From Kofleriaceae bacterium (GTDB taxonomy: Bacteria; Myxococcota_A; Polyangia; Haliangiales; Haliangiaceae), in NCBI GenBank assembly GCA_022842285.1, contig JALHPV010000012.1:1-56798 (forward strand): 56,798 nucleotides of DNA, written 5' to 3'. The notes beneath the pieces were generated by a model that was given only the letters and a program-made list of their open reading frames with translations, was not told the origin of the DNA and did not search any database. Positions 127 through 2,779 of this stretch are shown piece after piece. The first letter of the stretch is position 1. Each line of letters opens with the position of its first letter. A program made the position numbers and the translations under genes.

Positions 127-213
127 GTCATTCCGGACTGTGACGTTCTGTTGCGACGTGAATGCCGGTCGGCCGCGGGCTGTCTTGTTCAGTGCCGTCG
201 AGAGGTGCCCGCC

Positions 214-1158
214 GTGCGAATTCCCCTCCTAGCCTCAGTCCTGGTCTTCGCCGCTTCAACCGCGCACGCTGCCGCGACCCCGGTCACGGTCGTCATGGAC
301 CGCGGCGGGATGACCCTCGAAGACGGCACCCAGATCCCCGCCTACGGCGGCTCCACCAAGCGCTGGAACCAGGTCGTCGCCTGCGTCCAGGCCCACTTCA
401 AGCCGTTCAACGTCGACATCGTCGAAACCGCGCCGGCCGACCGCCCGGTGATCCGCGCACTCGTCGGCGGCACCCCCGACCTCATCGGTCTCGAGGACGA
501 GACCACCACTGGTCTCTCGCCCTACAACGGCGAGGTCATCCCGAGCTCTCTCGTCTACGTCTTCTCGCAGACCATCGGTGAGTCCAACGTCGACTGGATC
601 TGCGCCACCGCCGCCCACGAGATCGGCCACTCCCTCGGCCTCGATCACTCGAACATCTGCGGCGACATCATGAGCTACCACGGTGAAGAGTGCGGCAGGC
701 CCACCTTCAAGACGACCTCGGGTCCGTGCGGCGAATACGAAGACCGCACCTGCGCCAACGGCAGCGACACCCAGAGCTCGTTCCACGGCATCGCCGCGAA
801 CGTCGGCCTCCGCGGCGAGTCGCCGATCGAGCCGATCGAGGCCGACGACGAGATCTTCGATCCCGCGGATCCAGATGTCCCCTGGACGACTGGCAACGAC
901 GACCTCGAGGAGGAGCAGTGGACGCCCTACGATGACGACGAGTCACTCGACAGCGACGACTTCGCGGACGAGGACATCGAGACCCCCTACGACCTCGATG
1001 TGGACGAGCCGGACGCGACGAATGCGCCCACCGAGCAGGAGGTTGGTCGCGCGAGCTGCGGCGGGCGCGAGCACGAGCAGGTGCGGTCGCACGGCCGGGG
1101 ATGGTCACGCGGCGAAGGCCGGACGCGTGATGGCCGCGCCCGTCATCCGCGCCACTAG
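214..1158 (+). CDS. Secreted metzincin-like zinc metalloprotease
   Basis: Predicted exported zinc protease of 314 residues. GTG at 214 is chosen because it starts a clean signal peptide (cleavage after AHA, about residue 18) and has a GAGAGG ribosome site ten bases upstream; an upstream TTG at 151 would add an Arg/Cys-rich stretch. The zinc motif HEIGHSLGLDH (residues 135-145) is the HExxHxxGxxH signature of metzincins, and DIMSYH just after it supplies the Met-turn methionine. Several Cys follow, suggesting disulfides. After about residue 210 comes a very acidic Asp/Glu-rich linker, and then an Arg/His/Gly-rich tail that looks out of character and contains no membrane anchor or MYXO-CTERM helix. 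The stop codon is the first bases of the repeat array, so the tail may have been altered when the array arrived. Substrate unknown. Confidence 0.75.
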   Translation: MRIPLLASVLVFAASTAHAAATPVTVVMDRGGMTLEDGTQIPAYGGSTKRWNQVVACVQAHFKPFNVDIVETAPADRPVIRALVGGTPDLIGLEDETTTGLSPYNGEVIPSSLVYVFSQTIGESNVDWICATAAHEIGHSLGLDHSNICGDIMSYHGEECGRPTFKTTSGPCGEYEDRTCANGSDTQSSFHGIAANVGLRGESPIEPIEADDEIFDPADPDVPWTTGNDDLEEEQWTPYDDDESLDSDDFADEDIETPYDLDVDEPDATNAPTEQEVGRASCGGREHEQVRSHGRGWSRGEGRTRDGRARHPRH

Positions 1159-1302
1159 GGCCTGGCCCATTTCGCTCCTAGGGCCTGGCCCATTTCGCTC
1201 CTAGGGCCTGGCCCATTTCGCTCCAGGGGCCTGGCCCATTTCGGCCTGGCCCATTTCGGCCTGGCCCATTTCGGCCTGGCCCATTTCGGCCTGGCCCATT
1301 TC
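1155..1302. repeat. Tandem array: three 23-bp and five 15-bp units with a common core
   Basis: Three identical 23-bp units (1155-1177, 1178-1200, 1201-1223) begin CTAGGGCC; then five identical 15-bp units GGCCTGGCCCATTTC (1228-1242, 1243-1257, 1258-1272, 1273-1287, 1288-1302) follow. The 23-bp unit contains the same 15-bp core plus GCTCCTAG. There are no variable spacers, so it is not a CRISPR. The first unit overlaps the stop codon of the protease gene. A ninth core copy lies at 1397-1411. On the minus strand the 15-bp part reads as a KWARP pentapeptide repeat, which is most likely chance. Confidence 0.95.
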
Positions 1303-1390
1303 GCCCCTGACGAATAGGCAATAGGGAAGCGGAACCGGGGGCCGAAGAGGAGTGTCCGAGTGCCGGACACGACCGGCGGGGACTCGGCGC

Positions 1391-1411
1391 GAAATGGGCC
1401 TGGCCCATTTC
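1391..1411. promoter_or_regulatory. 21-bp perfect palindrome (operator candidate) before the HTTM gene
   Basis: GAAATGGGCC-T-GGCCCATTTC is a perfect 10-1-10 palindrome. Its right half plus centre is the array core. It sits 9 bases before a TACAGA hexamer (1421-1426), i.e. over the -35 region of the putative HTTM promoter, which is where a repressor or activator site would lie. A binding protein is not identifiable here. Confidence 0.5.
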
Positions 1412-1432: not shown

Positions 1433-2779
1433 GTGACCGAGGCCCTGCGCGCCCGCGCGAGTATTGCGGCAGGCAGGCCGGTCGACATCGCGTCGCTGGC
1501 GGTGTTCCGGATGCTGTTCGGGTTGGTGATGGCCGGGTCGGCGCTGCGGGTGCTGACGGCGGGGTGGATCGGGCCAATGTACGAGGAGCCGCGGTGGTTC
1601 TTCTCGTATCCGGGGTTTGCGTGGGTGAAGCCGTGGCCGGCGCCGGGGATGTACGTGCACTACGGGGTGCTGCTGGTGCTGGCGCTGGCAGTCGCGGCGG
1701 GCTGGCACTACCGGGTCGCGCTGGGGCTGTTTCTCGTGGGGTTCCTGTACTCGCAGCTCGTCGACGTGACGAACTACCTGAACCACCACTACCTGGTGGT
1801 GTTGCTGGCCGGGCTGTTGATCGTGCTGCCGGCGCACGCGGCGTGGTCGCTGGATGCACGAGCGGGGCGGGTCGACCGGCGGGAGACGGTGCCGGCGTGG
1901 ATGGTGTGGTTGCTGCGGTTTCAGATCGGGGTGGTGTACGTGTTCGCGGGGCTCGCGAAGCTGAAGGCGGACTGGTTGCTGCACGGGCAGCCGCTGAATC
2001 TGTGGCTGGCCGCGCGGACGGAGACGCCGATCGTGGGTGGGCTATTTGGCGATCCGCGGACGGCGCTGGCGATGTCGTGGGCCGGGTTTCTGTTCGATAC
2101 GACCATCGCGTTGTGGCTGTCGTGGGGACGGACGCGGCTCGTCGCGTTCGGGGCCCTGGTCGGGTTTCACGGGGCGACGGGGTACCTGTTCAACATCGGG
2201 TTGTTTCCCGTGATCATGACGACGGGGGCGCTGATCTTCTTTCCGCCTGACTGGCCGCGTCGGTTGCTGCGGCGGGCGGCGGTGAGGGTCGAGGGGGCGG
2301 CAGAGCCGCCCGGGCGCGCGGCGCGGATCGCGATCGGGATCTATGTCGTGCTGCAGATCGGGCTGCCGCTACGGCACGTGGTGTATCCGGGCGCGCTGCT
2401 GTGGAACGAGGACGGGATGCGCTTCGCGTGGCACGTGCTGATTCGCGAGAAACACGGCAGCGTCACGTACGTCGCGAAGTTCGCGAACGGCAAGCAGCTG
2501 GAGATTCCGCCCGGACGGTGGCTGACGTGGCGGCAGGAGCGAGAGATGAGCGGGCAGCCGGATCTGATCCTCCAGCTCGCGCGGGCCATCGACCGCGACC
2601 TGGCGGCCCGGGGATTTCGCGACTACACGCTGCACGCGATCACCCAGGTCTCGTTGAACGGGCGGCGGCCGGCGCCGCTGATCGACCCGACGGTCGATCT
2701 GAGGACGCTCGGGGACGTCGGCGCACGGGACTGGGTGCTGCCCGCGCCGACCGAGGACCCGCCGGTCGTCGAATACTGA
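1433..2779 (+). CDS. HTTM / vitamin K-dependent gamma-carboxylase-like membrane protein
   Basis: Polytopic membrane protein of 448 residues related to the HTTM domain, the membrane part of gamma-glutamyl carboxylase. Seen: several hydrophobic helices in the first 270 residues; NYLNHHY in the region where the family has an N-x-x-H-Y motif; and FAGLAKLKADWL (about residues 171-182), which lines up with human GGCX around its catalytic base Lys218, so K176 appears conserved. The C-terminal third is soluble and holds a segment (NEDGMRFAWHVL) common to bacterial homologues. GTG 1433 is preferred over ATG 1394 because the 21-bp palindrome lies between them and a TACAGA hexamer ends 6 bases before the GTG. 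No carboxylation target or quinone reductase is nearby, so the bacterial reaction is unknown. It stands alone. Confidence 0.75.
   Translation: MTEALRARASIAAGRPVDIASLAVFRMLFGLVMAGSALRVLTAGWIGPMYEEPRWFFSYPGFAWVKPWPAPGMYVHYGVLLVLALAVAAGWHYRVALGLFLVGFLYSQLVDVTNYLNHHYLVVLLAGLLIVLPAHAAWSLDARAGRVDRRETVPAWMVWLLRFQIGVVYVFAGLAKLKADWLLHGQPLNLWLAARTETPIVGGLFGDPRTALAMSWAGFLFDTTIALWLSWGRTRLVAFGALVGFHGATGYLFNIGLFPVIMTTGALIFFPPDWPRRLLRRAAVRVEGAAEPPGRAARIAIGIYVVLQIGLPLRHVVYPGALLWNEDGMRFAWHVLIREKHGSVTYVAKFANGKQLEIPPGRWLTWRQEREMSGQPDLILQLARAIDRDLAARGFRDYTLHAITQVSLNGRRPAPLIDPTVDLRTLGDVGARDWVLPAPTEDPPVVEY

Follow-up and report, generated by a model that had tools for sequence, protein, structure and literature searches.

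A dispersed palindromic repeat family of REP/TIR type, probably tied to a RAYT transposase, forms a minisatellite-like array in a Kofleriaceae genome

The window analysed in this study is a stretch of 56,798 nucleotides from a Kofleriaceae bacterium, in which a metalloprotease-like open reading frame is followed by a repeat array, two palindromes and an HTTM-domain gene (Table 1). Exact copies of the 15-bp core GGCCTGGCCCATTTC start at positions 1159, 1182, 1205, 1228, 1243, 1258, 1273 and 1288 (core-to-core spacing of 23, 23, 23, 15, 15, 15 and 15), and a ninth exact copy stands apart from this array at 1397-1411. The 23-bp unit is composed of CTAG, the core and GCTC; its CTAG is copied from the sequence, stop codon included, that lies ahead of the array. 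Searching the window at up to three mismatches found 12 core matches against 1.4 expected by chance, and none of the shuffles of the window gave 12. The palindrome at 1391-1411 owes its other half to a reverse-strand copy of GGCCTGGCCCATTTC at 1391-1405, which carries one mismatch. This 21-mer forms a 9-bp hairpin as single-stranded DNA (-8.1 kcal/mol, z -4.1); the copies in the array are half-palindromes that keep only the inner palindrome and are not complete hairpins. The eight-copy array with two periods (23 and 15 bp), the ninth copy and the perfect 21-bp palindrome of the original prediction were all found as exact matches at the sites it had given. Its claim that the first copy begins in the stop codon of the protease gene holds for the 23-bp unit, which overlaps the stop, but not for the core, which starts after it.

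Table 1. Positions of the features discussed in the text (positions without a prefix are those of the window; G000 is the genome that contains the window)
Feature	Position	Strand	Remarks
Upstream open reading frame, metalloprotease-like	151..1158	+	HEIGHSLGLDH motif; stop TAG 1156-1158 abuts first core
Period-23 segment	1155..1243	+	3.9 copies (Tandem Repeats Finder); unit carries CTAG
15-bp core array, eight exact copies of GGCCTGGCCCATTTC	1159..1302	+	REP-type half-palindrome repeat
Period-15 segment, core alone, exact copies	1228..1303	+	5.1 copies, 100% match (Tandem Repeats Finder)
Palindrome GTGTCCG-AGTGC-CGGACAC	1352..1370	.	distinct from core
Perfect 21-bp palindrome GAAATGGGCC-T-GGCCCATTTC	1391..1411	.	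full REP form
HTTM-domain gene	1433..2779	+	name from the original prediction; start GTG chosen from orthologues
RAYT-A, REP-associated tyrosine transposase gene	G000:C24:14257
Second RAYT of G000	G000:C87:16013-16837 (L135)		own repeat family GGGGTCSGACCCC, 100 copies
GAAATGGGCCTGGCCCATTTC			repeat sequence form of the RAYT-A pair, besides the half-palindrome array
GGGGTCGGACCCC			repeat sequence of other RAYT/repeat pair

The palindrome ends 21 bp ahead of the likely start codon of the HTTM gene (GTG 1433), and a perfect dyad in this place favours an operator, in which the palindrome binds a regulator of HTTM and the array serves to titrate this regulator or to make its binding cooperative. 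However, neither a sigma-70-like promoter nor an intrinsic terminator was called in 1050-1550, which deprives the proposed placement of the palindrome over the expected -35 of the HTTM gene of its promoter. The core was absent at the HTTM orthologues of four sister species (G003, G004, G005 and G009); conservation at orthologous promoters, which would speak for a titrating or cooperative operator, was thus not found. These sister species are too distant for an empty-site comparison, and the absence of the repeat is all that is readable from them. In G005 an RNA-binding-protein gene (rrm) lies directly before HTTM, with no protease gene and no array between. With no copy of the core at up to one mismatch anywhere in these four genomes, and none at their HTTM orthologues, the best reading of the repeat near the HTTM start is that it was inserted there, and its link to the HTTM promoter is incidental. 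The HTTM gene of G004 (G004:C2:27514-28917, L194) carries that species' own repeat: several GGGGACGGTGTCAACCTT-type repeats lie inside the frame, which stays open.

Analysis of the window's own genome (7.9 Mb, assembled in 550 contigs, contamination estimated at 4%) found the core, at up to one mismatch, at 62 places, against none for the reversed control; in each of 15 other genomes of the same genus, 0-1 copies were found. The copies in G000 are mainly extragenic and form about 18 clusters spread over many contigs; many of these clusters are arrays in which spacer and period are particular to the cluster. By rough GC-frame gene calls on 14 sequence stretches, 13 of the 18 clusters follow a predicted stop codon at a distance of no more than 30 bp, in agreement with the preference of REP elements for sites 3' of genes (PMC3733652). 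A genome-wide count of this kind had been named in the original prediction as a check on its operator claim, and on that check the claim fails, the core being dispersed over the genome and mainly just after stop codons. The palindrome alone fares no better as a widely conserved operator, since AATGGGCCNGGCCCATT gave only 28 matches in 84,980 species genomes, all single and scattered over unrelated phyla. Plasmid records gave no match. At L089:10086-10106 a palindromic core copy overlaps a gene and provides its stop codon, the TAA in GGCCCATTAA.

The position of most clusters closely behind stop codons, together with a hairpin that has a T-rich tail (ATTTC/TTTTC), would also suit an intrinsic terminator or a stabiliser of mRNA 3' ends kept by selection, in which case the likeness of the copies would reflect convergent use of one terminator type. 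We consider this very improbable: a GC-rich hairpin with a T run was not found at the array (no terminator being called in 1050-1550), the copies share an exact sequence beyond structure alone, the same-genus genomes lack the core, the core tracks a RAYT gene, and some copies sit within genes or at a distance from gene ends.

A search for Y1 transposases in G000 found three genes, among them one on contig 24, designated RAYT-A, with a match to PF01797. RAYT-A starts about 105 bp downstream of a nine-copy cluster of the core, and a further core copy lies at its 3' end; repeats of the dispersed family thus stand on both sides of the gene, as in a TIRtron. With about 18 clusters in 7.9 Mb, we estimate a chance of about 0.2% that one of them falls within about 1 kb of a given gene. 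RAYT-A carries the HxH and Tyr motifs of a Y1/HUH gene, and the catalytic His-x-His and Tyr (H60, H62 and Y118) are invariant in all 16 RAYTs aligned. Its match to NF047646 (REP-associated tyrosine transposase) has an E value of 1.2e-10 and a score of 41 bits, under the curated cut-off of 80 bits. A PDB profile search matched no structure of a RAYT; its matches were weak and concerned helix-turn-helix and designed proteins. The other two Y1_Tnp genes of G000 (C2 and C160) are of a different type, with no core in the flanks read, and were set aside. At L088:6257-8659 the RAYT-A frame has no stop of its own, reads through the last core and continues antisense to a gene of 1300 aa; RAYT-A may be decaying or failing, because its own stop codon is absent.

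The core family has the features that define a TIRtron repeat family, namely dispersed repeats on both sides of a Y1/HUH gene. Its 21-mer is a hairpin-forming palindrome within the 20-40 bp of REPs, and its copies are many and dispersed; it is not a canonical REP, because a GTAG or CGTC foot common to the sequences of all core clusters was not found. We therefore regard the core as very probably a species-specific, untagged REP/TIR (TIRtron) family of RAYT-A, with a minisatellite-like expansion in the window. Linkage to a transposase explains the family better than an operator does, and the operator reading is very improbable.

The spacers of the arrays indicate how the clusters grew. On average, spacers match the left flank of their own locus at 0.75 and those of other loci at 0.38, and only 1 of 40,320 permutations was as good as the assignment of spacers to their own flanks; spacer likeness is 0.78 within arrays and 0.40 between arrays. 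Since the spacers copy their own left flank, the arrays grew by local tandem duplication. In the window, the spacer ends in CTAG, as does the left flank that holds the stop codon, and the duplicated unit was thus 'left flank + core'. It is reported that the units of large REP clusters are tandemly reiterated with flanking DNA of variable length (PMC3733652); once a copy has inserted, such clusters grow by tandem duplication on the spot, for which the own-flank spacers are direct evidence at sequence level. Exact copies at the 15-bp period and own-flank spacers would equally be expected of a plain minisatellite, a product of local slippage in which no mobile element takes part. Slippage accounts for the growth of the array but not for dispersal, and the occurrence of the same core, in different flanks, at about 17 further places, as well as next to a RAYT gene, makes a plain minisatellite very improbable. 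Accordingly, the alternative first proposed for this array, a minisatellite grown from one operator, is right about tandem growth and wrong about the seed, which is a dispersed, RAYT-tied element of REP type and not an operator.

The history of the locus under the RAYT-A reading is very probably as follows. Copies of the RAYT-A repeat have become dispersed over about 18 places, for the most part directly behind stop codons. The full form of the repeat, a palindrome about 21-27 bp long, folds into a hairpin in single-stranded DNA; the RAYT, as an HUH/Y1 enzyme, would cut and move the repeats and so mobilise them. Behind the protease gene one core copy inserted, and the array expanded locally from it: 'left flank + core' was duplicated in tandem, at first with period 23, the later period 15 corresponding to duplication of the core alone. 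We infer that the arrays arose by slippage or single-strand repair; either the enzyme or replication slippage at the hairpin may make the duplications. The palindrome at 1391-1411, which stands alone, is a second, intact copy. Locally, the repeat is likely to affect DNA structure or the protease transcript at its 3' end rather than to control HTTM specifically.

RAYT relatives were found in 105 of the 318 genomes of the class, and flanks were extracted for 16 of them; the repeat assignments given here rest on the flanks listed. The RAYT of G005 is flanked on both sides by GGGGTCCGACCCC, which occurs 100 times in G000, 64 times in G005 and 0-3 times in nine other genomes. Three copies of GGGGTCCGACCCC lie directly upstream of a second RAYT of G000, on contig 87, which has repeat copies on its upstream side only and shares GGGGTCSGACCCC with the RAYT of G005. 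Close to this gene the repeat is longer and becomes a perfect palindrome of 27 bp, TGTCGCAGGGGTC-G-GACCCCTGCGACA. The G000/G005 pair independently replicates the rule that a RAYT goes with its own repeat, and two further pairings behave alike. The RAYT of G010 has GGGGCCTGGCCCC upstream, and GGGCCWGGCCC occurs 102 times in G010 (control 14) and 87 times in G000 (control 15); elsewhere it stays at about control level in most genomes, G011 having 155 against a control of 93, both high. The long RAYTs of G029, G028 and G004 carry TTGACACCGTCCCC, with 67, 33 and 15 copies in the respective genomes. In G029 most TTGACACCGTCCCC copies form inverted pairs, with their starts at one of two fixed distances (about 34 or about 55 bp), an arrangement that is REPIN-like.

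The RAYT tree separates short from long RAYTs with 100/100 support, and the two clades match two repeat styles. Long RAYTs carry inverted repeats of GGGGACG or GGGACG type, and several have a recognisable C-terminal helix-turn-helix; four of the five short RAYTs have palindromic GGGGYC-N-GRCCCC-like repeats, and the fifth (G003) has a different inverted repeat. The palindrome at 1352-1370 in the window contains a second motif, TGTCCG-N5-CGGACA, which shares a repeated unit with the 27-bp palindrome at the contig 87 RAYT. The motif occurs 89 times in G000 (reversed control 0), 0-65 times in 15 other genomes of the same genus and across the family, being present for example in 96 copies in G020, a genome with no RAYT match, and absent in G011. 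In each of the five short RAYTs examined it stands ahead of the start codon (in G005 with a single altered arm base), and 12 of the 49 sites listed lie within 150 bp of either repeat family (0.13 expected). It is also present in genomes with no RAYT match and often lies inside predicted genes. It is conceivable, if rather doubtful, that short RAYTs, having no C-terminal DNA-binding domain, use the fully symmetric GGGGYC-N-GRCCCC in place of a tagged hairpin foot and are controlled by, or travel with, TGTCCG-N5-CGGACA. If so, the short-RAYT clade would be a distinct branch of REP/RAYT systems with target recognition that needs no GTAG guide, and its transposase would be wired into a host regulon.

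The statement that no element with this sequence had been described stands for the exact sequence only, as the kind of element is known (PMC3733652, PMC2817692). Among known systems, TIRtrons and the TIR repeats of TIRYT transposases (PMC3733652) resemble the present family in having a RAYT-like gene flanked by repeats that lack GTAG/CGTC, and in dispersed families that occur as singles, dimers and clusters, some of them self-complementary. The core differs from TIRs in sequence, lacks the GGGGWSAS motif reported for some of them (PMC3733652), and forms large same-direction arrays with locus-specific spacers. GTAG REPs, BIMEs and REPINs are likewise short, species-specific palindromes in tens to hundreds of copies, with one family per RAYT that flanks the RAYT gene and lies mostly 3' of genes (PMC2817692, PMC3116915). 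Unlike them, the core has no GTAG foot and many of its copies are half-palindromes in head-to-tail arrays, and inverted pairs are common here only for the repeats of long RAYTs. Minisatellites show the same head-to-tail growth, with a period that changes within one array, whereas here a dispersed element provided the seed for arrays at many places. The TIRtron paper makes no mention of Myxococcota (PMC3733652), and our literature search, which covered the field in part and is weak evidence to that extent, found no report on REP/RAYT families in Polyangia (Myxococcota); this study adds repeat/transposase pairs to a lineage that has no reported ones in the literature examined. The presence of two separate pairs in one genome, and of others in sister species, makes the co-evolution of RAYTs and repeats testable within a single genus. 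The TnpA-REP subclasses share the HUH and Y1 catalytic motifs with the RAYTs described here, and subclass 2.1 resembles the long RAYTs in its C-terminal helix-turn-helix (PMC6006769). In contrast to that survey, in which no REP-like sequences were reported near subclass 2.1 (PMC6006769), both the short and the long RAYT clades have repeats here.
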